Part shown: piece after piece, positions 3,591 to 22,726 of the stretch
Layout of the letters: every line of letters starts with the position of its first letter
How positions within the stretch are numbered: position 1 is the stretch's first letter
DNA from: Bacteroidota bacterium
GTDB lineage: Bacteria; Bacteroidota; Bacteroidia; 2-12-FULL-35-15
NCBI GenBank assembly: GCA_021323165.1
Contig: JAJTCJ010000028.1
Span: 1-33,263 of the forward strand
Length of the DNA: 33,263 bases
Direction of reading: 5' to 3'
Program-made: the position numbers and the translations under genes
The notes under the pieces: model-generated
The model's database searches: none
What the model was told of the DNA's origin: nothing
What the model saw: the letters and a program-made list of their open reading frames with translations, nothing else

Positions 3591-3605
3591 TGGCACGCAA
3601 ATATA
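3591..3605 (+). promoter_or_regulatory. TGGCAT-type element upstream of the AsmA-like gene
   Basis: TGGCACGCAAATATA starts 43 bases before the ATG at 3634. It carries the WGGCA block and the TA at positions 14-15 shared by seven sites in this window. The sixth base is C instead of T. Confidence 0.45.
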
Positions 3606-3633
3606 TTCTTATTGCAAAAAGTCAATATAGTAT

Positions 3634-4890
3634 ATGAAACCGCAATCGAATAATAAGAAAGCAAGGAAACCTTTGATTAAAAGAAGAGGAATAAAAATAT
3701 TAATGGGTATTTTAATAGTATTAATTGCATTAAGAATAGCATTACCATATATTGTTCTTAAGTATGCAAATAAAACACTATCAACAATGCATGGGTATTA
3801 TGGCCATGTGAACGATGTTGATATAGCATTATACAGAGGGGCCTATAAAATAAAAAATGTTTACCTTAATAAGGTAGATACTCTCACCATGGAAGAAACC
3901 GAATTCTTTCAGGCCCGGATGATTGACCTTTCTGTTGAGTGGGAAGCTTTAATTGACGGAAAAATTGTTGGAGAACTTGAATTTCACGATCCCAGACTAA
4001 AATTCACTAAAGAAAAAACCAAGGCTGAGGAACTTGAAAAGGACACAACAGATTTCCGGAAACTCCTTAATGATTTTATGCCATTACAAGTAAACAGATT
4101 TGAAATTATTAACGGAGTGATACAATACCAGGATCCGACCTCTACTCCAAAGGTTGATATCCAATTGGATAATGCTCATATTCTGGCTGAAAATCTAAAA
4201 ACAGAGAAAAGCGAAAAATTACTGCCGGCTAAAGTAACGGCAGATGCTAATATATATAAAGGTCACCTTTCACTTGAACTTAATCTTGATCCATTTGCGA
4301 AAGCACCAACATTTGATATGAATGCCGAATTAAAAGACACCCACCTACCCGAGCTAAATGACTTTTTCAAGGCTTATGGAAAATTTGATGTCAATAGAGG
4401 AACCTTTGGTTTGTTTACTGAAGTCGCATCCAAAGAAGGAAACTTTGTGGGGTATGTTAAACCTGTAATCAAAGATCTTGATATATTAGGAATGGAGGAC
4501 CGAGAAGATAATATACTTCAAAAGGCATGGGAAGCGATTGTTGGTGGTGCGGGACAATTACTGCGAAATCAAAAACATGATCAGGTGGCCACAAAAGTGC
4601 CGCTTGAAGGAAATTTTAAAGACACTGAAGTAAATATATTATATGCGATAGTAGAGATTCTTAAAAATGCTTTTATACAGGCGCTCCAACCTACTATAGA
4701 TCAGCAGATCAATATTGGCACCACAAGCACTCAGGATCTTGAAAGCCAGATATCTGGGAAAGATAAAAATGGAAATATTAATTTAAAGAACAATGATTCC
4801 ACCGAAAACAAAAAAGAAAATAAAGGGATCTTAAAAAAGATATTCAATAAAAATGATAAGGATAAACAAAAGAGTGAAGAAAAGAAATAG
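3634..4890 (+). CDS. AsmA/DUF748-like membrane-anchored protein
   Basis: This 418-residue protein has a basic N-terminus, one membrane anchor at about residues 20-40, and a beta-rich periplasmic body of the AsmA/DUF748 type (VDIALYRGAYKIKNVYL, then repeated alternating-hydrophobic strands). Proteins of this group are thought to form lipid-conducting grooves between the two membranes. At 418 residues it is much shorter than TamB, so it would need partners to span the periplasm. The tail from about 360 is polar and contains GILKKIFNK at 398-406, which matches GLLKKIFGK near the C-terminus of MlaD almost residue for residue at the same distance from the end. The gene stands alone between a terminator (3532-3571) and a candidate small RNA, with a TGGCAC element 43 bases upstream. 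The fold assignment is solid; the substrate is unknown. Confidence 0.78.
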   Translation: MKPQSNNKKARKPLIKRRGIKILMGILIVLIALRIALPYIVLKYANKTLSTMHGYYGHVNDVDIALYRGAYKIKNVYLNKVDTLTMEETEFFQARMIDLSVEWEALIDGKIVGELEFHDPRLKFTKEKTKAEELEKDTTDFRKLLNDFMPLQVNRFEIINGVIQYQDPTSTPKVDIQLDNAHILAENLKTEKSEKLLPAKVTADANIYKGHLSLELNLDPFAKAPTFDMNAELKDTHLPELNDFFKAYGKFDVNRGTFGLFTEVASKEGNFVGYVKPVIKDLDILGMEDREDNILQKAWEAIVGGAGQLLRNQKHDQVATKVPLEGNFKDTEVNILYAIVEILKNAFIQALQPTIDQQINIGTTSTQDLESQISGKDKNGNINLKNNDSTENKKENKGILKKIFNKNDKDKQKSEEKK

Positions 4891-4918
4891 ATAACTGCAA
4901 AAGAAATAGATAACTGCA
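4881..4918 (+). repeat. 19-base perfect tandem duplication over a stop codon
   Basis: AAAGAAATAGATAACTGCA occurs twice, at 4881-4899 and 4900-4918, with no mismatch. The first copy contains the stop codon of the AsmA-like gene (4888-4890), so the second copy carries an untranslated duplicate of the last codon and stop. It looks like a recent slippage duplication. Confidence 0.9.
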
Positions 4919-4979
4919 TAAGATATTATATCTCTAAAAATCTTAGTTAAAAATTTCCCCATCGATAGTGAAATTCAGC

Positions 4980-4994
4980 TGGCATAAATACTTA
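4980..4994 (+). promoter_or_regulatory. TGGCAT-type element with no gene downstream
   Basis: TGGCATAAATACTTA carries the full WGGCAT block and the TA at positions 14-15. No open reading frame of note follows; instead two hairpins and a T run follow within 90 bases, so it is a candidate promoter for a small RNA. Confidence 0.45.
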
Positions 4995-5003
4995 GAAGAT
5001 CAT

Positions 5004-5083
5004 ATTACATACACTATATATATACAATAAAGCATTACACTGCTTTATTCCAAAAGCGCAGCAGAGTAATCTGCTGCGCTTTT
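5004..5083 (+). ncRNA. Candidate small RNA of about 80 nucleotides
   Basis: Between the TGGCAT element at 4980 and the terminator at 5052-5083 lies a short AT-rich segment with a perfect eight-pair hairpin (AATAAAGC at 5026-5033 with GCTTTATT at 5042-5049), immediately followed by the GC-rich terminator hairpin. A promoter-like motif, an internal stem and a terminator in about 100 bases is the layout of a bacterial small RNA. The 5' end is inferred from the motif position and is approximate. The alternative is that this is only the 3' tail of the AsmA-like gene, whose stop codon is 160 bases upstream of the terminator. Confidence 0.4.
5052..5083 (+). terminator. Strong intrinsic terminator
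   Basis: AAAAGCGCAGCAGA (5052-5065) and TCTGCTGCGCTTTT (5070-5083) form a perfect 14-pair stem with the four-base loop GTAA, followed by one more T. It stops plus-strand transcripts from the AsmA-like gene or the candidate small RNA; the A tract on the left gives it some activity on the other strand too. Confidence 0.9.
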
Positions 5084-5131
5084 TAGCATTGTAATATTTA
5101 TTAGAAGATCAAGGTCAAAATATAGACTAAT

Positions 5132-5163
5132 AAAAAAGGAGCGAAATTTCGCTCCTTTTTTTT
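5132..5163. terminator. Bidirectional terminator between convergent units
   Basis: GGAGCGAAATTTCGCTCC (5138-5155) is a perfect palindrome flanked by six As on the left and eight Ts on the right. It lies nine bases beyond the stop of the minus-strand gene ending at 5172 and backs up the plus-strand terminator at 5052-5083. Confidence 0.9.
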
Positions 5164-5171
5164 ATTAATTT

Positions 5172-6269
5172 TTACCATGGTCTCAGATCATCGTCATCTA
5201 AATTCAATCCTCTTCCTCCTCTGTTCTGATGAGTCCTGAAATCACTTTCATTATAATCAGCATTACTATTTCTGTTGCTGTTGCGTGAATTTCGGTTTTG
5301 TGGATATTCATTGTCATCGCCTCTACGTCTTGAACTGTTATATGATTCATTACGTCCTTCTTCTATATCATCCCATCTGTTTCGAGAATTTCTTCCGTTT
5401 TCTGAACGCCTGTTTTCATCTGAATAATTTCTTCCATTATATCCTGTTCCCTGACTACTATCATTTCTGAAATAATTATCATCTCCCCTGCTCTGATCAT
5501 ATCCGCTTCCATTCCTCTCAGTAAAATTATTCCTGTAAGAATCATGGCGCCCACGATCATTTCCAAAATCATTACGATACTGATCATTATCTGAGCGATC
5601 ATATCCTCTATTTCTGCTCATTCCCGAATCATGGCGTCTTTGAGAATAATCGCCTTCACTGTTATTACGGAATCTCTCATCTCTTTCATAATCGCGTCTG
5701 TCATTTCGATCATAATCTGAACTATAATTACCGTAATTATCATATCGCTGAGAATAATTTCCGTTGGAATCGCGGTTATTCATATTCGAGCCATTATAAT
5801 TTTCTCTTCGGTTCCCGTAGGATTCATTGTAGCCGGTATTATCATATTGACGTATCCTTTGGCTGTAATTCCTGTCGTTTTGCTGATTTGCATATTTTGA
5901 TGAACGCGGCTCATTGTAATGATCATTTCTCTGATCATCATCTCTACGCTGATGGCTATTAGCATATCTGGCATTACGTGCGCCATTGTAGCTGTCAGGA
6001 TCATCTGAATGTCCATCATCATTTGTAAATTCTGCGGAAGTATGTTTCCCCCGTGATCCTGATGCAGTTCTATTTGGTGTTTTACCCTTCTTTATTGTTG
6101 AAACAATTGAATCAGGCTTATCATTGATACCATCAGAATTTCCCTGCTCCTGAAAATGTTCTTCTCTGGAAGATTGGGTGGATGACTTTGGTGAACGGCT
6201 GCGTGAAGAATTGTTTGTAGAGTCTGAAGACAATTTCTTCTGACCTCCTTTTGATTTATTACTTTCCAT
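5172..6269 (-). CDS. Long disordered Asn/Arg/Asp/Ser/Tyr-rich protein
   Basis: I do not recognise this 365-residue protein. It has no signal peptide, no hydrophobic segment and almost no Leu, Val or Ile between about residues 85 and 340; that part is an irregular repeat of Tyr/Asn/Arg/Asp/Gly/Ser units such as YDRNDRRDYERDERF and GRHDSYRNN. The first 80 residues are Ser/Lys-rich and the end is NRGGRGLNLDDDDLRPW. The alternation of Tyr and Arg with Gly, Ser and Asn is typical of intrinsically disordered RNA-binding or condensate-forming proteins, but that is inference from composition. The start is the ATG at 6269; a TTG two codons upstream is less likely. A TGGCAT element lies 52 bases before the start and a strong terminator follows the stop. 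The composition and clean start and stop signals argue for a real gene rather than a chance repeat frame. Confidence 0.75.
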   Translation of the reverse strand: MESNKSKGGQKKLSSDSTNNSSRSRSPKSSTQSSREEHFQEQGNSDGINDKPDSIVSTIKKGKTPNRTASGSRGKHTSAEFTNDDGHSDDPDSYNGARNARYANSHQRRDDDQRNDHYNEPRSSKYANQQNDRNYSQRIRQYDNTGYNESYGNRRENYNGSNMNNRDSNGNYSQRYDNYGNYSSDYDRNDRRDYERDERFRNNSEGDYSQRRHDSGMSRNRGYDRSDNDQYRNDFGNDRGRHDSYRNNFTERNGSGYDQSRGDDNYFRNDSSQGTGYNGRNYSDENRRSENGRNSRNRWDDIEEGRNESYNSSRRRGDDNEYPQNRNSRNSNRNSNADYNESDFRTHQNRGGRGLNLDDDDLRPW

Positions 6270-6306
6270 ATGCAAATGTTTTAAATTAGTAGAATATGAT
6301 TATTTC

Positions 6307-6321
6307 TAAAACAATATGCCA
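6307..6321 (-). promoter_or_regulatory. TGGCAT-type element upstream of the disordered-protein gene
   Basis: Read on the minus strand, TGGCATATTGTTTTA begins at 6321, 52 bases before the ATG at 6269, and fills most of the gap behind the preceding gene (stop at 6322). It has the full WGGCAT block and TA at positions 14-15. Confidence 0.5.
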
Positions 6322-6690
6322 TTAGCCAGCGCTGTTCTTATGTTCTCTCTTACCTATATCTTCAACATCTTTTATGAATTTTGCAACATGCGGATCACTA
6401 TATGCTCCATAAGCATCAGTTAAAGTACCTTTTTCCCCACTTGTGGTCTCAATCGCATAAAGGATCGAACTATCCGAAGGATCTGAATCCCCTTCGAAAC
6501 GATAAAAGTTGGTTATTTTAACCTGGTCAGGTGTATATATTTTTTCTGTTGTTAAGGATTTTAAACCATGTTTCATTGCCTTGAACTGGGTTTCATACCC
6601 TTTTGCTAATAATGAATTGGTGCATGAAACCAACGTTTTCATGTGTTCCTTATCCATATCATTGTTCAGATCTAAATTCTGTGTGTCCAT
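6322..6690 (-). CDS. Small conserved protein of the family often labelled PRPP synthetase
   Basis: This 122-residue soluble protein contains the stretch FYRFEGDSDPSDSSILYAIE, then GTLTDAYGAY, which I recognise from a widespread family of roughly 100-residue Bacteroidota proteins that databases often call phosphoribosylpyrophosphate synthetase. It has none of the PRPP-binding or ribose-phosphate motifs of the real enzyme (about 310 residues), so that name should not be used to infer activity. A helical N-terminal half (about residues 10-55) precedes a small beta-rich domain. It sits between the Omp85-type gene (54 bases upstream) and the disordered-protein gene, with its own TGGCAT element 43 bases before the start, which suggests it can be transcribed apart from the genes before it. 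The function is unknown. Confidence 0.85.
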   Translation of the reverse strand: MDTQNLDLNNDMDKEHMKTLVSCTNSLLAKGYETQFKAMKHGLKSLTTEKIYTPDQVKITNFYRFEGDSDPSDSSILYAIETTSGEKGTLTDAYGAYSDPHVAKFIKDVEDIGKREHKNSAG

Positions 6691-6718
6691 AATATAATTT
6701 TTAGTTTATAACATCAGG

Positions 6719-6733
6719 TAAAAAACAATGCCA
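6719..6733 (-). promoter_or_regulatory. TGGCAT-type element upstream of the PRPP-synthetase-like gene
   Basis: Read on the minus strand, TGGCATTGTTTTTTA begins at 6733, 43 bases before the ATG at 6690, inside the 54-base gap to the preceding gene. It has the full WGGCAT block and TA at positions 14-15. Confidence 0.5.
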
Positions 6734-6744
6734 CAGAGTTCTGT

Positions 6745-8574
6745 TTATTGATAGCTTATGAGAGAGGGTTGTGAGATATCGAATCCCCTGAAGCCAAAGT
6801 CTGTAGTTTTGACCGGATTCATTTTAAATATATTATTTGCAACCCCGGGAATACTAGGATAAAAAGCAATGGAAATTTGAAATTGATTCATGATCAGATA
6901 ATCGTTTTTTATCAATAGGCCGATTCCATATGATGAATAAAGCGGACTTCGTGAAAAACCGGTATTCTCAGTTCCGAGCATTCCGAAAGAACAAACTAAA
7001 TAAGGGCCAAACCTAAAACCCAGTATGTTCCAGGGCGCGTAAGACTGCAGCTGAAAAGTAAGAGTGAAGCGTTGTGTACCCGCTAAACCGGTACTGTTAA
7101 ATCCTCGTATTCCTCCTTCATTATTTAAACTCAATTTTTCATGAGCTCTTCTATCGAAACCGACAGTATACTGCTGTTTAATAAATTGACGCAGCTTCCA
7201 TCTGCCAAGTCTGATGATATTACTGAAATAATTTATTCCTACTACATAACAACCCTGCTCCTTTTGTTTCTTCCGAAAAAATGTTCCATATTCCATATAA
7301 AGGTTAAAGTATCCCCAGTTATGATAATTTGCCATATAGATCCGTCCACCCGCATACCACCTCGGAACACTATCTCTCAATTGATAACCTGCTATAAGGG
7401 AATATGCTCTTCCTGTCGGAACATCTTCAGTGAAACCGTATCTGAAAATGTAGTTATCCTGTTTATATTGTCGTCTGGATAAACCAACACCCACTAGATA
7501 CAGATCTTCATCTGAATGAACTCCCAATGAATCAAATGATTCGGAAGCACGTTCCTGATAACGCATTCTCATATACCTTGCAGAAGATATAAAACTGGTA
7601 GAGCGCCTGTCTTCTGTTTTCCCTCTCACTAGCTGCCATGAGCGTCCAATCCAATAATCCTGGCTGGTAGATCTGTAACGTTGTTCAAATGCTGTTGAAT
7701 CAAATCCTAATAAAACTTCCCTTGTTAAACTTCTTTGCAGCGATATTCCACCTGCCCATGCCGTAAATATTGAATAAAAAGACCTGTTAAGAGAAATTCC
7801 ATGATAATAATTTCTGTTCTCGTCAGCATAATATCTTAGTGAAGAACTGATATAAGTGTTATGAATATTGGGAATAATATAGTTAGCCATGTAACTGTTA
7901 TTTCCTGTCACATAATTCTGAAAATAATTTCCCTCAAACTGATGACCCGTCCCCAAAAAATTTTTATCCTTTCCATTAATAGAAGAAGTTGTCGTGGTTG
8001 CTACACCTGTGACAATAATACTCCATACATCATAAACTCTTATAAACAGATCAACTGAATCTCCTTTAACTTCAATTGGTGTTATGAATACTTCTCTGAC
8101 ATAATTCTGACTGCGTATTAAACGCGCTGATTCTTTAACACGCAGGGAATCGAACGTATCATACTTTTTAACAATAAGAATATTTTTGATTTTAACCGGC
8201 CAGGTCTTGATATGAACGGCATTTCCTGCCTTAGGGACAAATCCTCTTGGATGCTGACTTGTATCCTTTGTACTGTATCCAAAGGGATCATACGTAATTA
8301 TCTTAATGTCTCTGATAACCTTCCCCTCGAAATCAGAAAGTTTAACAGGTTTTTCCTTAAGGATTGGTTGTTTATTTGAGCGAACCTGCGGAGTTGGTGT
8401 GATGGGCCTGAAGACAAGACTATAAAGAAGCTGTGTGAATTTCCGTTTATTGGAAAAATCCTCTATCCTTTTATAGATGTAGATAGAGTCCAGAAATTCT
8501 TTCCTTTCGCGCTGCCCATAAGCAACACTCCGGAACATAAAAATCGCAAGACATATGAGTACAACGCGAATCAT
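6745..8574 (-). CDS. Omp85-type outer-membrane barrel (BamA/TamA-like)
   Basis: This 609-residue protein begins with a clear signal peptide (residues 1-20, cleavage probably after AYG). Residues about 80-175 resemble one POTRA module (VIRDIKIITYD, then RLIRSQNYVREVFITPIEV). The remaining 430 residues alternate aromatic and polar strands and end in short hairpins, as in Omp85 surface-antigen barrels; GGIRGF at about two-thirds resembles the conserved strand-12 loop motif of the family. It is smaller than BamA and has fewer POTRA domains. It follows the AsmA-like gene by 16 bases on the same strand, so the two are probably one operon. That pairing mirrors TamB with TamA, and I infer a shared route across the periplasm. 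Its cargo, protein or lipid, cannot be told from the sequence. Confidence 0.82.
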   Translation of the reverse strand: MIRVVLICLAIFMFRSVAYGQRERKEFLDSIYIYKRIEDFSNKRKFTQLLYSLVFRPITPTPQVRSNKQPILKEKPVKLSDFEGKVIRDIKIITYDPFGYSTKDTSQHPRGFVPKAGNAVHIKTWPVKIKNILIVKKYDTFDSLRVKESARLIRSQNYVREVFITPIEVKGDSVDLFIRVYDVWSIIVTGVATTTTSSINGKDKNFLGTGHQFEGNYFQNYVTGNNSYMANYIIPNIHNTYISSSLRYYADENRNYYHGISLNRSFYSIFTAWAGGISLQRSLTREVLLGFDSTAFEQRYRSTSQDYWIGRSWQLVRGKTEDRRSTSFISSARYMRMRYQERASESFDSLGVHSDEDLYLVGVGLSRRQYKQDNYIFRYGFTEDVPTGRAYSLIAGYQLRDSVPRWYAGGRIYMANYHNWGYFNLYMEYGTFFRKKQKEQGCYVVGINYFSNIIRLGRWKLRQFIKQQYTVGFDRRAHEKLSLNNEGGIRGFNSTGLAGTQRFTLTFQLQSYAPWNILGFRFGPYLVCSFGMLGTENTGFSRSPLYSSYGIGLLIKNDYLIMNQFQISIAFYPSIPGVANNIFKMNPVKTTDFGFRGFDISQPSLISYQ

Positions 8575-8590
8575 TCTTTGTCATTTTAAA

Positions 8591-10195
8591 CTATTTTTTT
8601 TCCATGAAAAAATATGGAAAATAACGGTATTGGTTCTTTTGTACACCAATGCTAACTGTTCTTAATTTTCCATCTTTACCGGGATTATTCTCTTTAATTA
8701 TCAATTCATTCGCTACAAAATTCTTAAGTTTTGTTTTTAGATTCATTCCTTCCTTTCCCCCTAAAAGATTTACACTTAGATTATGATAAGCCATAGTCAT
8801 AGTTCCATCAGAGTATGTTCCGTTTGTATTCAAAACAAATTTCATTGAATCAATATTTCCACTTTTAATGGAGATACCTTTAGTTGATTCCAGTAAGGGA
8901 CTTAAAGCCATGATCGGCATTGAACTCATTATTCCGCTGCTAAAGCTAATTTCATCTCTGGTGTTTAACGGAAAATGAAAAGACGCGTCAAATCTTCCCT
9001 TATTCATAAAAATAGAATTCATAACGAGCCTGATCTCGCTTTTATCATTATATAGCGAACTATCACTTATGATTCCGGTAATAACTCCATTGATCTTATC
9101 AAATTTCATAATACCAGAAGCATTTGCACCTTCTGCCAGATCCTCATACTTTGCGGACGCATTAACCATTTCAATTGTATCAATTGAAAGGAATATCGGA
9201 ATATCCCTGATCATACTTTGCAACGAAGGCCGAACCACTTTAGCCAGAGGTATATTATTATCGCGGTAAACGTCAATAAGAAATCCTTTAAGAGTAAGCT
9301 TTCCGGCTACAAAAGAATTTTGTTCCAGGAATCTTTTCACATCGATATCTGTAAAATTTACTGTTGATGACACTATGGAAACACGACTTGTTTGTCTTCC
9401 CAGTTTCTTTCCAAACTCCTTCTTAGGATAATTAGGAACAAGCTGGAAAGAATCGATTGATATCACAGAATCAACATAAGAAGTATATAACCGTTTACCA
9501 AACACAGTATACATCCCATCAGGTAAATGATAAGAAAACCTGTTCATTATGATCTCAAATTTCTCAGCAGAAAACAAATGATCAGAATTGTTGTTGGTTG
9601 AGTCAACTGTAAACTTCCGGACGGATATACTATTCTCCTTAGCTGACAATAATGCCACTGTATCAACAGAACTCCTGTAAATATTGATCTTTGCGTCATC
9701 AATATCTATTTTATCAATTGATAATGAATTTAACTTAGCTGAGATCATCTCAAAAAAAGAAAAAGGTGGAATAACCGTATCCACTGCTTCTTCTATTGCC
9801 TTTCCCTGCTTTTGATAGATTGAGATCTCCGGTTTAGTGAACAGGATGCTGCTTATCTTGAGATCTTTATTTTTAAAGTATGATAGTAATGAAAATCCGA
9901 CTACCTTTAGCGAAGATGCTTTTATAACATAACCAACCTTTTTTGCTGTAATATTTTTTTCACTTGGAGCCACAATTAAGTTCTCTATAGTAACTGAACG
10001 GGCAAGGACACGTACAGAAAGATCATCCACAGCAATTGTATATTCTCCATGACTGCCCTCTTCAACCCTTTCCTTTAAGGAAGAAAGAACCCGCTGGCTA
10101 AGATATGAATTAAGGAAACCCGCTGACAGCAGTAGAACTGAAAGCATAACAACTACAATGAGTCCAAAGAGCCGAAGCTTACGTGTTTTTGGCAT
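8591..10195 (-). CDS. AsmA-like membrane-anchored periplasmic protein
   Basis: This 534-residue protein has a basic N-terminus and a single membrane anchor (about residues 8-28), then a long beta-rich periplasmic body with the alternating pattern of AsmA/DUF748 proteins (for example ITIEN-like strand turns and IDKIDIDDAKINIY at about 185). No enzymatic motif is visible. The frame is open to a GTG at 10231, but the ATG at 10195 puts MPKTRKLRL directly before the anchor, so I choose it. It is followed after 16 bases by the Omp85-type gene. In this fold family the body is a hydrophobic groove that can carry lipid between membranes; the pairing with a barrel fits that. A looser TGGCAT element lies 28 bases upstream. 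It is transcribed away from the BrkB-type gene at 10247. Confidence 0.72.
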   Translation of the reverse strand: MPKTRKLRLFGLIVVVMLSVLLLSAGFLNSYLSQRVLSSLKERVEEGSHGEYTIAVDDLSVRVLARSVTIENLIVAPSEKNITAKKVGYVIKASSLKVVGFSLLSYFKNKDLKISSILFTKPEISIYQKQGKAIEEAVDTVIPPFSFFEMISAKLNSLSIDKIDIDDAKINIYRSSVDTVALLSAKENSISVRKFTVDSTNNNSDHLFSAEKFEIIMNRFSYHLPDGMYTVFGKRLYTSYVDSVISIDSFQLVPNYPKKEFGKKLGRQTSRVSIVSSTVNFTDIDVKRFLEQNSFVAGKLTLKGFLIDVYRDNNIPLAKVVRPSLQSMIRDIPIFLSIDTIEMVNASAKYEDLAEGANASGIMKFDKINGVITGIISDSSLYNDKSEIRLVMNSIFMNKGRFDASFHFPLNTRDEISFSSGIMSSMPIMALSPLLESTKGISIKSGNIDSMKFVLNTNGTYSDGTMTMAYHNLSVNLLGGKEGMNLKTKLKNFVANELIIKENNPGKDGKLRTVSIGVQKNQYRYFPYFFMEKK

Positions 10196-10208
10196 GAAAC
10201 TGACTAAA

Positions 10209-10223
10209 CCTAAAAGGATGCCA
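10209..10223 (-). promoter_or_regulatory. Looser TGGCAT-type element
   Basis: Read on the minus strand, TGGCATCCTTTTAGG begins at 10223, 28 bases before the ATG at 10195. The WGGCAT block is perfect but the TTTA comes two bases too early compared with the other sites, so it is a weaker match. Confidence 0.3.
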
Positions 10224-10246
10224 ATGTACACTAATGATTTAGAATA

Positions 10247-11170
10247 ATGGACTTAAAAAAACTCTGGAACACAATTAAAGAAACTTTTAGTGAGTTTATT
10301 GATGATAATGCTATCAAGTTAAGTGCGTCTTTATCATATTACACCATATTCGCTCTTCCTCCTCTTATTATTGTAATTATTGCTTTATGTGGAGTATTTT
10401 TCGGTAAAGAGGCGATACGGGGGGAAATTTTTGGACAAATAAACGATTTTGTTGGAAATGACGCGGCTCTAGAGATTCAGACGATCATTAAAAATGTGAA
10501 GTTAAAGAACGATAATGTATTCGCTGCAACAATCGGTACAATGACATTATTAATAGGAGCTTCCGGAGTATTCGGTGAGATACAAAGTTCTATAAATTAT
10601 ATCTGGGGGCTTAAACCAAAACCCAAAAGAGGCTTCTTTAAATTCATAAAAAACCGTTTTACCTCATTTTCAATGATAGGAGTTCTGGGCTTTCTCCTAT
10701 TAGTTGGACTTATTATAAATTCACTTATGGATGTATTAAATCAACGCATAATGAACTATTTCCCTTACATTGCGGTATATGTCTTCTACATTTTGAATTT
10801 ACTCCTCGTTTTCATTATAACCACCTTCCTGTTCATTATCATTTTTAAGACACTACCTGATGGAAAAGTAATGTTTAAAGATGCTTTAGTGGGATCATCC
10901 ACAACAGCAGTTCTTTTTTTACTTGGAAAATTTGGAATCGGTTTGTATTTAAGCAATTCCTCCATTTCATCAACTTATGGCGCTGCAGGTTCTGTTATAA
11001 TTATTCTATTGTGGGTTTATTATTCAGCGATCATACTTTATCTGGGTGCTGAGTTTACAAAAGTATATGCTCGATCACATGGAACCAAGATAATTGCTAA
11101 TGATTATGCAGTAATGATCGATAAAGTAATACCCGAAATAGAACCGAAAGTGGTTTACAAAGGAGAATAA
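10247..11170 (+). CDS. YihY/BrkB-family integral membrane protein
   Basis: This 307-residue protein has six hydrophobic segments and the family hallmarks: DNAIKLSASLSYYTIFALPP at residues 19-38, GEIQSSINYIWGL at about 113-125, and GAAGSVIIILLWVYYSAIILYLGAEFTK near the end. The family was once annotated as ribonuclease BN, but that activity belongs to another gene; its members are now described as YihY/virulence factor BrkB, with an unsettled role in the membrane. The start at 10247 leaves 51 bases to the divergent AsmA-like gene, so their promoters must share that space. No clear -7 box is visible. The full family length is present and no residue looks odd. Confidence 0.92.
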   Translation: MDLKKLWNTIKETFSEFIDDNAIKLSASLSYYTIFALPPLIIVIIALCGVFFGKEAIRGEIFGQINDFVGNDAALEIQTIIKNVKLKNDNVFAATIGTMTLLIGASGVFGEIQSSINYIWGLKPKPKRGFFKFIKNRFTSFSMIGVLGFLLLVGLIINSLMDVLNQRIMNYFPYIAVYVFYILNLLLVFIITTFLFIIIFKTLPDGKVMFKDALVGSSTTAVLFLLGKFGIGLYLSNSSISSTYGAAGSVIIILLWVYYSAIILYLGAEFTKVYARSHGTKIIANDYAVMIDKVIPEIEPKVVYKGE

Positions 11171-11225
11171 CAACCTTTTTGGGGAAGTGAATACACAATA
11201 AAACCTTACAAACAAACGAAAATAG

Positions 11226-11240
11226 TGGCAGGATAATTTA
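11226..11240 (+). promoter_or_regulatory. TGGCA element upstream of the lmo0937-type gene
   Basis: TGGCAGGATAATTTA begins 45 bases before the ATG at 11271. It has WGGCA and TA at positions 14-15; the sixth base is G instead of T. Confidence 0.4.
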
Positions 11241-11270
11241 AATACAAAGTAAACAACTAAAAAAATTATT

Positions 11271-11423
11271 ATGGGAAATTTACTTTACATTATCGCAGTC
11301 ATCCTTGTAATAGCATGGCTAATCGGATTCGTAGGTTATCAGGCAACAGGACTCATTCACATCCTACTTGTGATCGCTGTAGTTGCAGTATTACTTCGCT
11401 TAATTCGCGGAGACAGAGTATAA
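11271..11423 (+). CDS. lmo0937-family small membrane protein
   Basis: This 50-residue peptide (starting MGNLLYIIAVILVIAWLIGF and ending RLIRGDRV) has two hydrophobic helices, about residues 4-22 and 28-44, separated by a short GYQATG turn. This is the lmo0937/DUF5670 family of tiny membrane proteins, common near stress genes in Bacteroidota and Firmicutes; its function is not known. The ATG at 11271 is the only sensible start. A TGGCA element lies 45 bases upstream, and a hairpin with a T run follows 22 bases after the stop, so it can form a transcript of its own. Confidence 0.88.
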   Translation: MGNLLYIIAVILVIAWLIGFVGYQATGLIHILLVIAVVAVLLRLIRGDRV

Positions 11424-11445
11424 CCAAATTACAAAAATAACAAGT

Positions 11446-11479: not shown

Positions 11480-11482
11480 AAT

Positions 11483-16468: not shown

Positions 16469-18749
16469 TATTTGCCTAATTATCATTTTTTATCTGGCAT
16501 CCTGCAGCGGGACTAAAAATCTTCCTGAAGGTGAAAAATTATATGTTGGTTCTGATATTAAGTTTGAGCACAAAGGAAAAATAAAAAATAAACGTGCTTT
16601 AAAAGCAGCAGCCGAAAGTGCAATTCGACCGCGTCCGAACAAAGGCTTTCTTGGAATAAGACCAAAACTCTGGATGTATATGAAAGCCGGTAGTGATCCT
16701 AAAAGTAAATTCAAAAAATGGCTTAAAAAACACGGAGAAGCACCTGTTCTTATAAGTGATGTTAAACCTGCAACCACAAGCCAGTTTATCGATGCCAAAC
16801 TATTTAACAATGGTGTTTTCAAAAGTTTTACTCTCTACAAAATAAAAGAAAAACGAAAGACTGCTAAAGTTATATACACCTCGGTTATTCACAAACCATA
16901 CACAATTAAGGGAATTCAATTTCCTGAAGCGGATAATGACATTAACAGATTAATTTTTCTATCTGCAGAAAAGACTTTGATAAAACCTGGGAGTGATTAT
17001 AACCTTGATCTTTTAAAGAATGAAAGAATAAGGATTGATGGTATTCTTAAAGACAACGGCTATTTTTATTTTAACCCGGATTACCTTTTATTCAATGCAG
17101 ATACATCTGAAACAGAAAAAAATGTCAGTCTGAAGCTTACAGTAAAAAAAGATATTCCTGAAAAAGCAAGACATACATATCGTATCAACAATGTTTATAT
17201 CGATCCTCAATATTCTTTGGATGAAGATGCGGAAAACACCCTTAAAGACACGATGCACTTTGAGAACAATATATTCATAGGAAAGGCTGATGACATGAAG
17301 ATCAGGCCGAGAGTACTTCTTCGCTCAATCTATTTGAAAAGATTCGAAGTTTACTCCAGGAAGAATCATAATATAAGCCTGAACCGATTAATGTCGATGG
17401 GGAATTTCAAATTTGTCAGGATCAATCTTGTAGAAAGTGATACTATTGCTCCTGATTTCCTTGATGTAAGAATTATGCTTACACCAATGCCCAAGAGAAC
17501 ATTCCGCAGTGAATTAGATCTTGTTACAAAGTCAAATGACTTCAGCGGTCCGCGACAGAATCTAACTTATCTTAACAGAAATACATTCAACGGAGCTGAA
17601 TTATTAAACGTAAATATAGCCGGCTCATTTGAAACACAAATCAATTCGAAAGAACACATCTATTCATATTCTATTAATCCAAGAGTGGAAGTGTACTTTC
17701 CTAACTTTTTAGTACCATTTAAGATCAGAAAAACTAATGGAATGTATATTCCGAAAACAAAAATTTCCTTAGGATATAACTATCTGAAAAGAATGACATA
17801 CTTCGATATGCGTACACTTCAATTTATTTTCGGTTATAAATGGAAAGAAGACATACGAAAAGAGCATGAATTAAATCCATTCACAATCAATTACACTTCC
17901 GTAAAAAACAAATCACAGGAATTTATCGCCTTGCTTGAGCAAAATCCATTTTTGAAAAAGAGTTATGAAGAACAATTCATAGCAGGAGGAAGTTATACTT
18001 TTAGTTATAATGAACAGATGCTCACAGCTAAAAAAGTCCAATACTTTTTTCATGGAATAGCCGAAATCGCGGGGAATACATTTACTTTAGCAAAAGCCAT
18101 TGCAGGCCAGCCTGTTTCTGCAGAAAATCCAGGAAAGATCGCTGGTTCAGTTTATTCCCAATTTGGAAGAATCAGTCTTGATGGCAGAAGCTATATTAAT
18201 ACCGGAAAAAGAAATAAACTGGTGCTCAGATTATTTGCCGGAATGGGGAAGCCATATGGTAATTCTTCCACATTACCATACGTGAAACAGTTCTTCAGCG
18301 GTGGCCCAAACAGTATTCGGGCATTTAAGATTAATTCTTTAGGACCTGGCTCTTATCAGCAAAGCTCCGATAAAAAAAATGCATTTCTTCAAATGGGAGG
18401 AGATATTAAACTTGAATCCAATGCTGAATTCAGGATTGACATAATACGTTTTTTAAAAGCAGCAATATTTGTAGATGCCGGGAACATATGGCTAACAAAG
18501 GCAAATCCAGCTAATACAGTACCGGCATTTTCATTTTCAGAATTCCATAAAGAGATCGCTGTAGGAGCTGGTGTGGGTTTGAGAGCAGACTTATCTTTCT
18601 TTGTTCTTCGATTTGATCTCGCAGCACCACTCAGAAAACCATGGCTTCCGGAAGGAGACCGATGGGTAATTGATAAAATAAGTTTCGGAAATTCCGGATG
18701 GAGAAGTGAGAACTTAATACTAAATGTGGCAATTGGTTACCCTTTTTAA
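16446..18749 (+). CDS. tamL: TamL, lipidated TamA-type Omp85 barrel
   Basis: This 767-residue outer-membrane protein starts with a lipoprotein signal peptide (residues 1-19, lipobox LASC with Cys20) instead of the plain signal peptide of proteobacterial TamA. That is the mark of TamL, the Bacteroidota form. POTRA-like modules occupy about residues 30-340 (for example FIDAKLFNNGVFKSF). The rest is an Omp85 barrel with the conserved motifs FSGGPNSIRAFKINSLGPGS near residue 620 and GAGVGLRADLSFFVLRFDLA near the end. The frame runs back to 16353, but the ATG at 16446 gives the signal peptide. It overlaps the end of tamB by 23 bases, so the two partners are made together. Confidence 0.92.
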   Translation: MKRLVINSICLIIIFYLASCSGTKNLPEGEKLYVGSDIKFEHKGKIKNKRALKAAAESAIRPRPNKGFLGIRPKLWMYMKAGSDPKSKFKKWLKKHGEAPVLISDVKPATTSQFIDAKLFNNGVFKSFTLYKIKEKRKTAKVIYTSVIHKPYTIKGIQFPEADNDINRLIFLSAEKTLIKPGSDYNLDLLKNERIRIDGILKDNGYFYFNPDYLLFNADTSETEKNVSLKLTVKKDIPEKARHTYRINNVYIDPQYSLDEDAENTLKDTMHFENNIFIGKADDMKIRPRVLLRSIYLKRFEVYSRKNHNISLNRLMSMGNFKFVRINLVESDTIAPDFLDVRIMLTPMPKRTFRSELDLVTKSNDFSGPRQNLTYLNRNTFNGAELLNVNIAGSFETQINSKEHIYSYSINPRVEVYFPNFLVPFKIRKTNGMYIPKTKISLGYNYLKRMTYFDMRTLQFIFGYKWKEDIRKEHELNPFTINYTSVKNKSQEFIALLEQNPFLKKSYEEQFIAGGSYTFSYNEQMLTAKKVQYFFHGIAEIAGNTFTLAKAIAGQPVSAENPGKIAGSVYSQFGRISLDGRSYINTGKRNKLVLRLFAGMGKPYGNSSTLPYVKQFFSGGPNSIRAFKINSLGPGSYQQSSDKKNAFLQMGGDIKLESNAEFRIDIIRFLKAAIFVDAGNIWLTKANPANTVPAFSFSEFHKEIAVGAGVGLRADLSFFVLRFDLAAPLRKPWLPEGDRWVIDKISFGNSGWRSENLILNVAIGYPF

Positions 18750-18750
18750 C

Positions 18751-18765
18751 TGGCATAAATTTATA
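18751..18765 (+). promoter_or_regulatory. TGGCAT-type element upstream of the DUF4142 gene
   Basis: TGGCATAAATTTATA begins two bases after the tamL stop and 46 bases before the ATG at 18797. It has the full WGGCAT block and TA at positions 14-15. Confidence 0.5.
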
Positions 18766-18796
18766 ATATTTAAGGCAATAAAAATATCTGAATATC

Positions 18797-19423
18797 ATGA
18801 AAACAACCTTTACCAAAACTACTATCAAAATTACCGGTTTGGCACTTTCATTATTATCGATAGTTGCTTGTGATAATACTAAAAACAGGAACAGTAATGA
18901 TTCGAAAGATGTAGCTGAAGAGCACAATGATGCAAAATTCAATAAGGACAAAGAAAAGGAAGCAGACTTCTTTGTTGAAATTACAGACATGACAATTCAG
19001 GAAATTAAACTATCCGAATTAGCCGAAAAACAAGCACAAGCTGACGATATTAAAGAATTAGGTAAAATATTAAGAGAAGATCATTCAAAGTCATTAAAAG
19101 AAATTGAAGAAATGGCAAGAAAAAAGATGATCACACTTCCGGTTGATATTAGCAAAGATGGAAAGGATAATTATGAAGACATTTCCAAAAAACAAGGCCA
19201 GGAATTCGATCATGCTTATGCTGATGAAATGGTCGATCTGCATACACTTCAGATCAGCAAATTCGAAAAAATGGCAACTGATGCTGAAGATTACGAACTA
19301 AGAAAATGGACAGAAACAAAATTAAAGGAACTAAGAACGCACCTTGACAGATCGATGACCTGCAGGGATAAATATAAAGAGGATAAGAAAGACAAAACTC
19401 CTCTAAGTAAAATTAAACACTAG
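18797..19423 (+). CDS. DUF4142 lipoprotein
   Basis: This 208-residue protein has a lipoprotein signal peptide (Cys25 after SIVA) and, after a charged linker, an all-helical DUF4142 domain (about residues 55-195), a ferritin-like four-helix fold. The start of the domain, KEADFFVEITDMTIQEIKLSELA, is typical. DUF4142 proteins are periplasmic or surface helical bundles of unknown activity, often next to other stress genes. I see no metal-ligand pattern that would make it a ferritin. The gene begins 47 bases after tamL, preceded by a TGGCAT element, so I read it as separately promoted. It is followed by the PA2169-type gene with 64 bases between. Confidence 0.87.
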   Translation: MKTTFTKTTIKITGLALSLLSIVACDNTKNRNSNDSKDVAEEHNDAKFNKDKEKEADFFVEITDMTIQEIKLSELAEKQAQADDIKELGKILREDHSKSLKEIEEMARKKMITLPVDISKDGKDNYEDISKKQGQEFDHAYADEMVDLHTLQISKFEKMATDAEDYELRKWTETKLKELRTHLDRSMTCRDKYKEDKKDKTPLSKIKH

Positions 19424-19437
19424 TACTTTAGTTCGAA

Positions 19438-19453
19438 TGGCATAAACATTTTA
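19438..19453 (+). promoter_or_regulatory. TGGCAT-type element upstream of the PA2169-type gene
   Basis: TGGCATAAACATTTTA begins 50 bases before the ATG at 19488. The WGGCAT block is perfect; the TA falls at positions 15-16, one base later than in the main group. Confidence 0.4.
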
Positions 19454-19487
19454 ATCAACAATTATATATACCCTTAAAACATAAAAA

Positions 19488-19940
19488 ATGGAAGCAACAA
19501 GCAAAGAAACAGTAGCATTGATAAATGAACTTATCGTAATCAACCATGACCGCATCGAAGGTTATGAAAGAGCTGCAAAGGAAACTGAAGATCCTCAGCT
19601 AAAATCATTATTCACAAGCATGGCAGATGAAAGCCGACAATTCAAAAACGAACTTGTTCGCGAAGTAGTTAATCAAGGCGGAAGTCCTGCTGAAGGAACT
19701 ACCACTTCCGGAAAAGTATACCGTGCCTGGATGGATATCAAAGCGGCACTAACAGGCAAAGATCGTCATGCAATTATCGCATCATGTGAATTTGGTGAAG
19801 ATGCTGCACTAGAAACCTATGAGGATGTCTTAAAGTCTGACAGCCTTGTAACTGAATGCAGAAATATGATCACTCGTCAGAAGAGCAGTTTACAAAAATC
19901 TCATGATAAAATAAAATTATTAAGAGATTCAACTAAATAA
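19488..19940 (+). CDS. PA2169-family four-helix-bundle protein
   Basis: This 150-residue cytoplasmic protein is a DUF2383/PA2169-type helical bundle. The opening ETVALINELIVINHDRIEGY and the following YERAAKETEDPQLKSLF, together with CEFGEDAALETYEDVL at about 105-120, are the family pattern. The fold is related to ferritin, and members are usually found with stress-response genes; no enzymatic role is established. It carries no signal peptide, unlike the DUF4142 gene before it. A bidirectional terminator overlaps its last codon. Confidence 0.9.
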   Translation: MEATSKETVALINELIVINHDRIEGYERAAKETEDPQLKSLFTSMADESRQFKNELVREVVNQGGSPAEGTTTSGKVYRAWMDIKAALTGKDRHAIIASCEFGEDAALETYEDVLKSDSLVTECRNMITRQKSSLQKSHDKIKLLRDSTK

Positions 19941-19966
19941 AAAAGGCCCCAAACGGGGCCTTTTTT
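19939..19966. terminator. Bidirectional terminator between convergent genes
   Basis: GGCCCC (19945-19950) and GGGGCC (19955-19960) pair across AAAC, with six As before and six Ts after. It serves the plus-strand PA2169-type gene and the minus-strand small secreted protein gene ending at 19965. Confidence 0.93.
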
Positions 19967-20210
19967 ATTCCTTCTTTCCTGAAGGAGATATTATTGGTTC
20001 GAGATCTTTCCTTTCCTTATCATCACGCTGCTCTTCAGGTAGAACCGGCTTGATCGGTGTCTTATGATGAATAGAATCCATTGGCATCTTTTTGATCTTT
20101 TCAAGATGCGTGCTGTCCACTTGCACTGTATCCTTTCTGTTGATCTTCTCTTGCGCCCCCATTGATAAACCCAAGAAAATAAAACTGATACTAATCGCTG
20201 CTTTTTTCAT
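19965..20210 (-). CDS. Small secreted hypothetical protein
   Basis: This 81-residue protein has a signal peptide (about residues 1-19, MKKAAISISFIFLGLSMGAQ) and a short polar mature part rich in Lys, Asp, Glu and Pro with no hydrophobic core. I do not recognise a family. The mature chain is probably a disordered periplasmic peptide. It is flanked by a terminator on its 3' side and is separated from the acidic-protein gene by a second terminator, so it is its own unit. No promoter box is visible in the 80 bases upstream. Confidence 0.65.
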   Translation of the reverse strand: MKKAAISISFIFLGLSMGAQEKINRKDTVQVDSTHLEKIKKMPMDSIHHKTPIKPVLPEEQRDDKERKDLEPIISPSGKKE

Positions 20211-20289
20211 ACTAATAGTTATTGATCTTACTATTTATGTTAAAAAAATGTACCCGATAATCTTCTTCAACATCAGTTTAAAGCATAAA

Positions 20290-20319
20290 AAAAACAGGAG
20301 TCTTAAACTCCTGTTTTTA
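20290..20319. terminator. Terminator after the acidic-protein gene
   Basis: ACAGGAGT (20294-20301) pairs with ACTCCTGT (20307-20314), with A and T tracts on both sides. On the minus strand the stem is followed by eight Ts, so it ends transcripts from the gene at 20336-20587. Confidence 0.88.
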
Positions 20320-20335
20320 AACGATAACATTTACT

Positions 20336-20587
20336 TTATAAAGATGTACTCATATAATCATAAAACTCCGCAATCGCAGGTTTTGATGTTTTATCATTCA
20401 GTTCAAACTCATCTTCATCATCTGATTCAAAGTTCTCAAAATCTTCTTCTTCTTCGCTAAACAATGGATCATCATCTTCATCGGGTTCTTCCCTTTCTTT
20501 TGTTTTAGTCTGACGACCTGGATTCGATGGGTTCGGCTTAGGATACGCTGTATCTTCCACCTCTTTGCTATATATTTTCATAATCAT
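20336..20587 (-). CDS. Small acidic hypothetical protein
   Basis: This 83-residue protein is dominated by Asp and Glu from about residue 33 (EEPDEDDDPLFSEEEEDF, then ESDDEDEFEL) with a Pro/Asn-rich stretch before. There is no signal peptide or membrane segment. Two ATGs two codons apart (20587 and 20581) are equally possible starts. It begins 49 bases after the Ku stop and ends at a strong terminator, so it may be the last gene of the Ku transcript. Its acidic, DNA-mimic-like composition next to Ku is notable but proves nothing. I do not recognise a family. Confidence 0.62.
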   Translation of the reverse strand: MIMKIYSKEVEDTAYPKPNPSNPGRQTKTKEREEPDEDDDPLFSEEEEDFENFESDDEDEFELNDKTSKPAIAEFYDYMSTSL

Positions 20588-20636
20588 CTATTTAAATTAA
20601 TATACATTTATCAGGTTAATTTTTAATACTTACAAA

Positions 20637-21413
20637 TCAGGATGCTTTCTTTTTACCATGAAGACTAGCCTTTAGCATGTCCATAAGATCATCAGACTTT
20701 GTATGTACAACTTTCATACGATGCACTTTTTTTGTGTTCTTACCTTTAGCTTTATCCTTTATTGTTTTAAGCAACTTTTCAGTATAGGTATTCTTATACA
20801 TCTCAATATTGAACTTTTCTGTAAGTTGATCTATTAGCTTTGTAGCCATAGCTTTTTCTTTCGGATTAATTTTTGCAGAGGACGGAATATCAAGATCCTT
20901 CGTACTCCTGATCTCTTCTTCAAATCGAAGCCTGTTAAGCATTATCACATTCTTATATGGTTTTAAGATCGCAAGAGCCTCTTTGTTTCTAAGAACAAAT
21001 GTTGTTACTCCTACTTTACCGGAAGCCTCCAAAGCATCTCTTAAGAGTGAATAAGCCTTTTGACCGCTTTTCTGAGGTTCGAGATAATAAGGCTGCTCAT
21101 AATATATACTATCGATCTCTGTTTCTTTCACAAAATTCATAATCTCGATAGTTTTCGTTTTAACTGCATCAGCAGCTTCAAAGTCTTCTTTTTCGAGAAC
21201 TACATATTGATCTTCGATGAGATATCCTTTAACTATATTCTCGTAAGGGACTTCCTTACCCGTCTTTTCATTCACACGCTTAAAGCGGATATTAGAATGA
21301 TCGCGGCTATCAAGCATATCAAGATCCAGAGAACTGCTTTCCACAGCAGAGAATAATCTCACCGGAATATTGATCAGTCCGAAACTGATAGCTCCTGTCC
21401 ACATTGCTCTCAT
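20637..21413 (-). CDS. ku: Ku protein for non-homologous end joining
   Basis: This 258-residue protein is a bacterial Ku homodimer subunit, which rings DNA double-strand ends and recruits the ligase LigD. The N-terminal [20 protein letters not shown] is diagnostic, and the core Ku beta-barrel continues through about residue 240 ([33 protein letters not shown]). The C-terminus is basic and short ([10 protein letters not shown], then GKKKAS), as in minimal bacterial Ku. No ligD is present in the window, so its partner must be elsewhere. It follows the unknown gene at 21440 after 26 bases, most of which are a TTTA repeat. The start is the ATG at 21413. Confidence 0.96.
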
Positions 21414-21422
21414 ATCCGCAGG

Positions 21423-21450
21423 TTTATTTATTTATTTATTTATTTATTTA
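21423..21450. repeat. TTTA microsatellite, seven perfect units
   Basis: Seven perfect TTTA units (TAAA read on the minus strand). The run covers the last codon and stop of the gene ending at 21440 and the spacer before ku. Because every frame through TAAA repeats meets TAA, copy-number change would not lengthen the upstream protein much but would change its spacing to ku in four-base steps. Confidence 0.95.
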
Positions 21451-21826
21451 TTACTTCCATGTCCTCTAACGGAAAATTACCGGTGCTGAGGGTAAAATTA
21501 AATTCGGAAATAAATGAAAGAAGCTCAGACATTCCGAATGTAGTAGACTTGAATTTTTTAACCGGAATTTTATTGATATTATAATTACTTCCTTCCTGGC
21601 GAACTTTATCCAAAGCATAAAGAGTTACAACAATTTCTTTTCCGTAAAAAACTCTTATTGCAACTGCTTCAAATTGATCGCTGTTGTAATTATCGAAATG
21701 ACGTTCGCAAAATTCATCCAGGGTCTTACCCGGACTTAGCGTTAGTGTAAGTTTTCCGCTTAATTCATTCTGAACCTGGGCACTTGAACTAGTCTCCATG
21801 CCATATAATTTTCTAATGTTAACCAT
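21440..21826 (-). CDS. Hypothetical protein between dehydrogenase and Ku
   Basis: I do not recognise this 128-residue soluble protein. It shows mixed alpha/beta character, with strands such as LTLTLSP and VAIRVFYGKEIVVTLYAL, and no signal peptide or membrane segment. The start ATG at 21826 lies inside the stop of the dehydrogenase gene (eight-base overlap ATGGTTAA), so its translation is coupled to that gene; a second ATG at 21799 is possible but would lose the overlap. The stop lies inside the TTTA repeat. Co-transcription with a stress dehydrogenase and Ku suggests a role in the same response. Confidence 0.72.
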   Translation of the reverse strand: MVNIRKLYGMETSSSAQVQNELSGKLTLTLSPGKTLDEFCERHFDNYNSDQFEAVAIRVFYGKEIVVTLYALDKVRQEGSNYNINKIPVKKFKSTTFGMSELLSFISEFNFTLSTGNFPLEDMEVINK

Positions 21827-22685
21827 TTACTATTTCCCCTCCGTTTGGATGTAAAAATTGACCTGTTATATATGATGAATCTTCGGAAGCGAGAAAAACA
21901 TACGATGGTGCTACTTCCACCGGTTGCCCGGGACGCTTCATCGGAGTTTCTGTTCCAAAAGATTTTACTTTTTTATCTTCAAAGCTTGAAGTAATTAATG
22001 GAGTCCAGATCGGACCCGGAGCAACACCATTTACGCGAATGCCTTTATCGGCAAGATTAGCAGACAAGCTTCTGGTGAGAGATACGATCGCACCTTTCGT
22101 TGCACTGTAATCCAACAAACCGCCACTTCCGCGGTATGCAGTAACTGAAGCTGTATTAATAATACTTCCGCCTTTTTTGAAATGCGTTATAAGAGCTTTG
22201 GTAAGCCAGAAGATCGCGAAAACATTTACTGAAAATGTTTTTAGCAGGTTTTCCGTTGTGACCTCATTTATACTTTCTACCGGATAATGAACACCTGCAT
22301 TGTTTACAAGAACATCAATGTTTTTAAATTTATTAATTATTTTTTTAGCTGCATTTTTACATTGAGCTTCTTTCGAAAGGTCAGCAGGGATCAACAAACA
22401 CTGACGATTATATTTTTTCATGATTATTTCAGCGGTATCTTCAGCATCCTGATCTTCCTTTAGATAAACGATCGCTACATCCGCTCCTTCTTTAGCGAAT
22501 GCAATTGCCACTGCACGTCCGATACCACTGTCACCACCGGTTATAACACACTTTTTATTCAGAAGTTTATTGCTTCCGGGTTTTAAGGAATCATACTCAG
22601 GCTCTGGAGCCATTTTGTATTCCAAGCCCGGCCTGTTTTGAGGCTGGGGTGGAAATATATTCTTTTTGGGATTTGATTTTTGCAT
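21819..22685 (-). CDS. GSP39-like short-chain dehydrogenase
   Basis: This 288-residue oxidoreductase has the nucleotide-binding motif TGGDSGIG at residues 49-56, NNAG at about 128-131, and the catalytic Tyr193-x3-Lys197 (YSATK). The N-terminal extension of about 40 residues with PPQPQNRPG and the whole length match the subgroup of Bacillus general stress protein 39 and E. coli YghA, NAD(P)-dependent enzymes of uncertain natural substrate. The active-site set is complete, so it should be active. It heads a minus-strand transcript running through the unknown gene, ku and probably the acidic gene. An AGGCAT-type element starts 41 bases before the ATG and an inverted repeat lies between the two. 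Confidence 0.92.
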   Translation of the reverse strand: MQKSNPKKNIFPPQPQNRPGLEYKMAPEPEYDSLKPGSNKLLNKKCVITGGDSGIGRAVAIAFAKEGADVAIVYLKEDQDAEDTAEIIMKKYNRQCLLIPADLSKEAQCKNAAKKIINKFKNIDVLVNNAGVHYPVESINEVTTENLLKTFSVNVFAIFWLTKALITHFKKGGSIINTASVTAYRGSGGLLDYSATKGAIVSLTRSLSANLADKGIRVNGVAPGPIWTPLITSSFEDKKVKSFGTETPMKRPGQPVEVAPSYVFLASEDSSYITGQFLHPNGGEIVNG

Positions 22686-22692
22686 AGCAATC

Positions 22693-22714
22693 TTAATGTT
22701 ATTGAAAACATTAA
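22693..22714. promoter_or_regulatory. Inverted repeat in the dehydrogenase leader
   Basis: TTAATGTT (22693-22700) and AACATTAA (22707-22714) are perfect inverted repeats around a six-base spacer. They overlap the downstream half of the AGGCAT-type element and so could be an operator or a leader hairpin. Confidence 0.35.
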
Positions 22715-22726
22715 AATTGCATGCCT
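22712..22726 (-). promoter_or_regulatory. AGGCAT-type element upstream of the dehydrogenase gene
   Basis: Read on the minus strand, AGGCATGCAATTTTA begins at 22726, 41 bases before the ATG at 22685. The first base is A instead of T; GGCAT and TA at positions 14-15 are conserved. Confidence 0.42.

Follow-up and report, generated by a model that had tools for sequence, protein, structure and literature searches.

What reads a short sequence that recurs in front of gene after gene, always oriented towards the unit downstream? The question is raised by a 33,263-nucleotide stretch of DNA from a Bacteroidota bacterium (GenBank assembly GCA_021323165.1, contig JAJTCJ010000028.1, positions 1 to 33,263), which we analyzed over its whole length and call the window. 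A first-pass annotation of the window had noticed seven copies of an element, WGGCA(T) followed by TA at positions 14-15, had placed six of them 41-52 bases upstream of an ATG, and had offered as its first option a divergent sigma-54 promoter. We find that the element represents a real, conserved class of promoter, most likely read by RpoN2, a second and divergent sigma-54 factor. That it is the core promoter of RpoN2 is a proposal resting on sequence comparison, to which we give a probability of about three in four. The sigma-54 option is the best one because the -24 half of the element and its distance from the predicted start fit, and because the missing -12 GC is matched by a divergent sigma-54; the presence of the second sigma-54 gene in the same genomic island and a small RNA that follows one of the sites further support it.

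The element and its position

Re-scanning both strands of the window recovered every one of the seven sites, among 14 matches to WGGCA-N8-TA, and the recounted distances from first base to ATG agree with the spacing originally given (Table 1). The six genes so preceded resemble genes with envelope and stress functions. The -24 GG of the canonical sigma-54 promoter is present at all seven, and the GC at -12 is indeed missing: none of the eight noncoding TGGCA in the window carries GC at positions 14-15, and 5 of 212 do so in the noncoding DNA of RpoN2-bearing stretches.

The 14 matches are a modest excess over shuffled windows (mean 8.15, sd 2.63; 14 was reached in 1 of 100 shuffles), and position rather than number carries the signal. 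Seven of the 14 are entirely noncoding, and these are the seven first reported, while noncoding DNA makes up 7.35% of the window (binomial P 2.5e-5, for a motif picked after inspection). The claimed concentration in noncoding DNA is thus borne out, with gene calls that come from a simple greedy open reading frame caller and whose start choices may be off, as for the copy in genome G010.

Across the RpoN2-bearing stretches, TA stands at 14-15 after 52 of 212 noncoding TGGCA (47 of 204 excluding the window); at other offsets from 6 to 30 it occurs 7-24 times, except for 47 at offset 6 (TGGCATA) and 34 at offset 27. Three genomes without RpoN2 have TA at 14-15 after 4 of 54 (Fisher P 0.0047 against the RpoN2-bearing stretches, a value that is too good because many island sites are orthologous). 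In four held-out RpoN2 genomes with 29 noncoding TGGCA, T[AT] occupies offsets 11, 12 and 13 in 17, 20 and 19 cases, and TA is found at 13-14 in 7 and at 14-15 in 6; TGGCAY-N4-TTT(T) followed by A or T therefore describes the element better. The combination first noticed is real, but a TA fixed at 14-15 is too narrow, since the offset varies in the held-out genomes. Counts over positions before genes give T1, G2, G3, C4, A5, T or C at 6 and A7; positions 11-14 are preferentially T, and position 15 is A or T.

Scored as TGGCAYN4TTT, the element occurs in noncoding DNA 37 times against 2 for the reversed sequence in RpoN2-bearing stretches, in which islands are over-sampled, and 3 times against 1 in three genomes without RpoN2; in G050, a further genome without RpoN2, 36,476 noncoding bases yield 0 against 1. 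Noncoding DNA is thus rich in the element within RpoN2 islands; the signal weakens in the rest of the RpoN2 genomes and is at background in the sampled genomes without RpoN2.

Upstream regions of orthologs were compared as well, and most targets keep the element in close kin. It precedes the DUF4142 gene in all four closest orthologs (L128, L131, L133, L137) and the gene for a 50-aa membrane peptide, which, following the first-pass annotation, we take to be lmo0937-like, in four of four, as TGGCAGG-N2-AATTTA or TTTC (one ends in TTTC). The AsmA-like gene has a TGGCAY copy upstream in five of the six orthologs shown (L173 not being flagged), and AGGCATRCAATTTTAATGTT stands before the short-chain dehydrogenase (SDR) gene in the window, G009, G010 and G019 and is missing from G020. 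For the disordered protein gene the element is found in L084, with a like copy in L085, and is absent from L083; for the 122-aa gene it was flagged in three of the eight orthologs shown (L083, L084, L085). Among genomes with RpoN2, 8 of 17 DUF4142 upstream regions contain the element by strict criteria and 11 of 17 by eye, some of them far from the island. Without RpoN2 the figures are 0 of 6 for DUF4142, 0 of 5 (strict) for SDR, with one loose copy, and 0 of 1 for the AsmA-like gene.

Two looser copies had also been proposed. The one before the DUF2383 gene at 19488 is present in the window and in one of four orthologs (L137) but missing from L128, L131 and L133. The one before 10195 fails as a copy of the element, as orthologs retain an inverted TGGCAT/ATGCCA arrangement instead; this inverted TGGCAT...ATGCCA is conserved between the divergent BrkB and 10231 genes (window 10195-10247 and orthologs). 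Another conserved stretch, RGGCAYTGCTTTTGRA, precedes mlaE (start 153) at window positions 26-110 and in most of the orthologs shown (L083, L084, L085, L086, L169, L172, L173); it has GGCAY in common with the element, but TTTTGRA.

A predicted small RNA at the site described as gene-free

The site at 4980 had been described as gene-free. That label does not hold, for the site precedes a conserved, covarying, terminator-ended and unannotated RNA, predicted at about 80 nt. In the window, G009, G010 and G019 alike, the element is followed after an 11-base spacer by UACAUACAC, which falls where a sigma-54 factor would be expected to start transcription, and then by a sequence-variable hairpin and a terminator, with fold z-scores for the four copies of -7.9 (window), -5.1, -6.1 and -8.4. 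A covariance model built on these four found a fifth copy, L137 in G032, that had not been used in building it (E 6.5e-12). In the five-sequence alignment, which was fitted to the covariance model, pairing holds in 94.7% of cells and both sides have changed in 8 of 19 pairs, each value being reached in 0 of 500 shuffles. The exact promoter-plus-leader pattern occurs in four of 60 genomes, and nine more match only at three mismatches, likely by chance. Rfam at gathering scores gave no family in the window.

Since the start and the end of the small RNA are fixed relative to the element, the RNA provides a strong argument, from sequence comparison, that the element at 4980 would act as a promoter. 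In G032, two further gene-free copies of the element (L086, minus strand 2798; L138, minus strand 3646) lie before terminator-like hairpins, and these are possible further small RNAs.

The promoter of another sigma factor, an extracytoplasmic function (ECF) factor or the Bacteroidota sigma-A, might be imagined in a phylum whose promoters are unusual, sigma-A having TAnnTTTG at -7 in the accessible text of PMC9723704. Judging from the element itself and from the sigma-54 genes surveyed, we regard this as highly unlikely: GG and TA lie about 10 bases apart, which does not fit a -35/-10 pair, TGGCAY corresponds to the -24 half of sigma-54 promoters, and the signal tracks a second sigma-54 gene.

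RpoN2, its family and its island

The genome to which the window belongs (G000; 4.02 Mb, 171 contigs) holds two sigma-54 genes, an ordinary one (L031) and the divergent RpoN2. Intact RpoN2 proteins of 481-487 aa are encoded in nine relatives; a second sigma-54 is found in 10 of 36 same-genus genomes, G000 included, and in none of 23 more distant ones, absences being provisional because the genomes are incomplete. RpoN1, the ordinary factor, was found in every RpoN2-bearing genome examined. A GTDB locus search with narrow word patterns returned 13 RpoN2 loci, all in metagenome-assembled genomes (MAGs) titled Bacteroidetes, Bacteroidota or Bacteroidia bacterium. The best 120 of at least 7,965 protein homologs above threshold are 48-100% identical to RpoN2 and, where named, come from Bacteroidota or Bacteroidia MAGs or soil metagenomes; PF00309, PF04963 and PF04552 are listed for most of these 120, the PF00309 call being missing in some. 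RpoN2 matches sigma-54 chains in the PDB at E 1.8e-66. In a quick tree of 39 RpoN2 and 28 RpoN1 sequences, one branch with full support in the Shimodaira-Hasegawa-like approximate likelihood ratio test (SH-aLRT) splits the two, with a summed length of about 3.3 changes per column.

The window shares synteny with the surroundings of rpoN2 in G009, G010 and G019 and, less closely, in G032. In G010 some 1.3 kb separates the divergent genes mlaE and rpoN2; in G000, mlaE lies at the start of the window contig and rpoN2 at the end of contig C128, which makes it probable that these contigs adjoin. G009, G010, G013, G019 and G032 carry DUF4142 on the rpoN2 contig, no more than about 25 kb from rpoN2, and homologs occur in eight of the nine other RpoN2-bearing genomes, as well as in G005, G033 (weak), G041, G053 and G055, where we found no second sigma-54.

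The NtrC-type activator that had been pointed out in the window is present there, adjoined by a histidine kinase (Table 1), and its island copies are 77-92% identical. The activator also suggests a different account, in which the element is bound by a regulator encoded in the island, such as this one, and is not a core promoter. The concentration of the element in islands that also hold the activator fits such a role. NtrC-type activators usually bind farther upstream, however, and the element is non-palindromic, has a single orientation and a fixed distance from starts, and is followed about 27 bases downstream by the beginning of a small RNA with its own terminator, which makes a regulator site distinctly improbable. 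An altered activator loop as a partner of RpoN2 was considered and rejected: the island loop, GSFTGA, occurs elsewhere too.

A second motif, GGGGAA followed after about 5-6 bases by TnCACA, occurs before the lmo0937/TamB genes and near activator and kinase genes (window 11181, L084:4129, L127:18324, L133:3594, L141:3722, L173:5553). GGGGAA/TTCCCC is found 54 times in 58,752 noncoding island bases, 36 times in 59,241 other bases of RpoN2 genomes and 12 times in 39,187 bases from genomes without RpoN2.

How RpoN2 could read the -12 half

Under the RpoN2 proposal, the holoenzyme would bind TGGCAY through the RpoN box, like ordinary sigma-54, but at -12 it would take TTTTA or TTTTT in place of the usual TTGCA. 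The predicted start lies about 27 bases past the first T, which would give the genes leaders of about 15-26 nt. Opening would be driven by an NtrC-type activator, the window's own being the simplest candidate, and the regulon would be centred on a putative stress and envelope island (AsmA-like protein, lmo0937 peptide, DUF4142, SDR, Ku) with a small RNA arm.

The accessible parts of PMC9770992, PMC5505868 and PMC7057263 describe R455 and R456 of the RpoN box as reading -24, H377, S379 and R383 as reading the GC, and the extra-long helix (ELH) and region I as holding the -12 fork in sigma-54 structures. The RpoN-box Arg pair is kept in 117 of the 120 RpoN2 homologs, the other three being gapped there. 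RpoN2 differs at ELH positions 328, 335 and 337, at helix-turn-helix (HTH) positions 384-387 and, in a comparison by eye, in region I. Of the 120 RpoN2, 104 have S, V, T or L in place of the ELH Trp (W328, Klebsiella numbering) and at most 12 have W; the Trp is present in 30 of 30 RpoN1 and in 18 of 19 additional sigma-54s, single or first, whose frame is readable. It is tempting to speculate, although we hold the idea to be doubtful, that the RpoN2 lineage gave up the -12 GC and remodelled region I and the ELH, which form the gate at the -12 fork. On this view a T/A fork that melts easily would be opened by an activator dedicated to it, or might even depend less on activation, and the factor would run a mobile regulon of stress and envelope genes with a small RNA of its own.

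Evidence against RpoN2 as the reader, and alternatives

Several results weigh against RpoN2 as the reader of the element. The rpoN2 gene of G000 is itself split over two frames (131 aa and a 307-codon open frame on contig C128; L032, L082), through either an assembly error or decay. The GC-reading residues S379 and R383 are kept in RpoN2, in 119 of 120 homologs each. The single sigma-54s of G050 (L253, Ser) and G053 (L322, Gly) are without the ELH Trp, and for this reason its loss is not a strict RpoN2-defining feature; as the sole cause of the -12 change we reject it, since G050 has lost the Trp and has no noncoding TGGCAYN4TTT. Neither a convincing palindrome nor a shared word that might be an activator site was found upstream of the elements. 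Off the islands the signal is weaker (6 against 0 reversed in G000, one of the six being canonical TTTGCA; 5 against 1 in G009; 0 against 0 in G010). The genome-wide scan that the first-pass annotation had suggested gave no excess of the exact pattern (116 against 108 reversed), counts that are flat because coding background swamps exact patterns, and whole-genome tallies are alike with RpoN2 (182 against 95 reversed) and in same-genus genomes without it (300 against 171). Whole-genome counts of canonical TGGCAYN5TTGC do not discriminate either, and canonical RpoN1 sites are not clearly seen in the genus and are too few for an internal contrast. Finally, a loose copy lies 42 bases upstream of the SDR gene in G040, where only one sigma-54 was found.

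This last copy, together with the presence of RpoN1 beside RpoN2 and the typical -24/-12 motif that the available text of PMC9723704 reports for a flavobacterium with a single sigma-54, would suit a scheme in which RpoN1 recognises the sites as promoters of degenerate sequence, with RpoN2 a bystander. We consider it unlikely, given that the noncoding counts of RpoN1-only genomes are near background and that island position and co-occurrence track RpoN2. Chance combined with selection of the motif by eye would accommodate the equality of whole-genome and reversed counts and the one shuffled window that reached 14 matches; already disfavoured by the ortholog footprints, and opposed also by the held-out genomes and the conserved small RNA, it is scarcely credible.

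Comparison with known systems

The element resembles canonical sigma-54 -24/-12 promoters in TGGCAY at -24, in the T run before -12, in spacing and start distance and in the activator genes nearby, and differs from them in that TA or TT replaces the -12 GC in most copies. Two sigma-54s per cell with promoter sets differing near -12/-11 are described in the accessible part of PMC3162934 for Rhodobacter sphaeroides (RpoN1/RpoN2) and Bradyrhizobium japonicum, the paralogue promoters differing at -11 in the former and at -12 in the latter. In these Proteobacteria the changes are of single bases, whereas here both GC bases are changed, and the paralogues have diverged much further as a family. The sigma-54 regulon of Flavobacterium psychrophilum (motif SM4), as available in PMC9723704, likewise belongs to the Bacteroidota, has stress and surface targets and rests on mapped promoters, but involves one sigma-54 and a typical -24/-12 motif. 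Several rpoN genes occur in about 5% of organisms, according to the available text of PMC12316311. In the open-access literature searched, we found no paper that reports, for Bacteroidota, either a second sigma-54 or a -12 element lacking the GC.

The signature GG-N10-GC serves sigma-54 regulon prediction, and a GG-N10-T(A/T) family would escape such searches. The -12 GC is where sigma-54 holds and opens the fork, so that a natural factor working without it would offer a direct test of the gate. If the proposal is true, uncultured Bacteroidota with little known regulation gain a regulon that includes a small RNA.

Features of the window

Table 1. Copies of the element, their predicted targets and neighbouring genes in the window
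Feature	Coordinates	Strand	Position or evidence
Element TGGCACGCAAATATA	3591..3605	+	43 bases 5' of AsmA/DUF748-like gene
AsmA-like protein (DUF748), target	3634..4890	+	Pfam PF05359, E 2.2e-26
Element TGGCATAAATACTTA, predicted small RNA promoter	4980..4994	+	window scan; kept in G009, G010, G019
Predicted small RNA, ~80 nt: 20-nt unpaired leader from UACAUACAC, one hairpin, intrinsic terminator ~5056-5084	5006..5084	+	
Element TGGCATATTGTTTTA	6307..6321	-	52 bases 5' of ATG 6269, disordered protein gene
Low-complexity Arg/Asn/Ser-rich protein, target	5172..6269	-	no Pfam match
Element TGGCATTGTTTTTTA	6719..6733	-	43 bases 5' of 122-aa gene (ATG 6690)
122-aa protein, family not recognised, target	6322..6690	-	no Pfam match
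Element TGGCAGGATAATTTA	11226..11240	+	45 bases 5' of peptide gene (ATG 11271)
50-aa membrane peptide, presumably lmo0937-like, target	11271..11423	+	translation; TamB-like gene next downstream
Element TGGCATAAATTTATA	18751..18765	+	46 bases 5' of DUF4142 gene (ATG 18797)
DUF4142 protein, target	18797..19423	+	Pfam PF13628, E 2e-28
Looser copy TGGCATAAACATTTTA	19438..19453	+	50 bases 5' of DUF2383 gene (start 19488)
Element AGGCATGCAATTTTA	22712..22726	-	41 bases 5' of SDR gene (ATG 22685) heading SDR-21826-Ku run
Short-chain dehydrogenase (SDR), target	21819..22685	-	Pfam PF13561, E 5e-61
Ku protein, probably within SDR-headed gene run	20637..21413	-	Pfam PF02735, E 4.8e-50
REC-PAS-histidine kinase, adjoins activator	22750..24204	-	profile match
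NtrC-type activator (REC, sigma-54 AAA+, Fis-type HTH; GSFTGA loop), candidate driver	24201..25673	-	Pfam PF00158, E 7.7e-66

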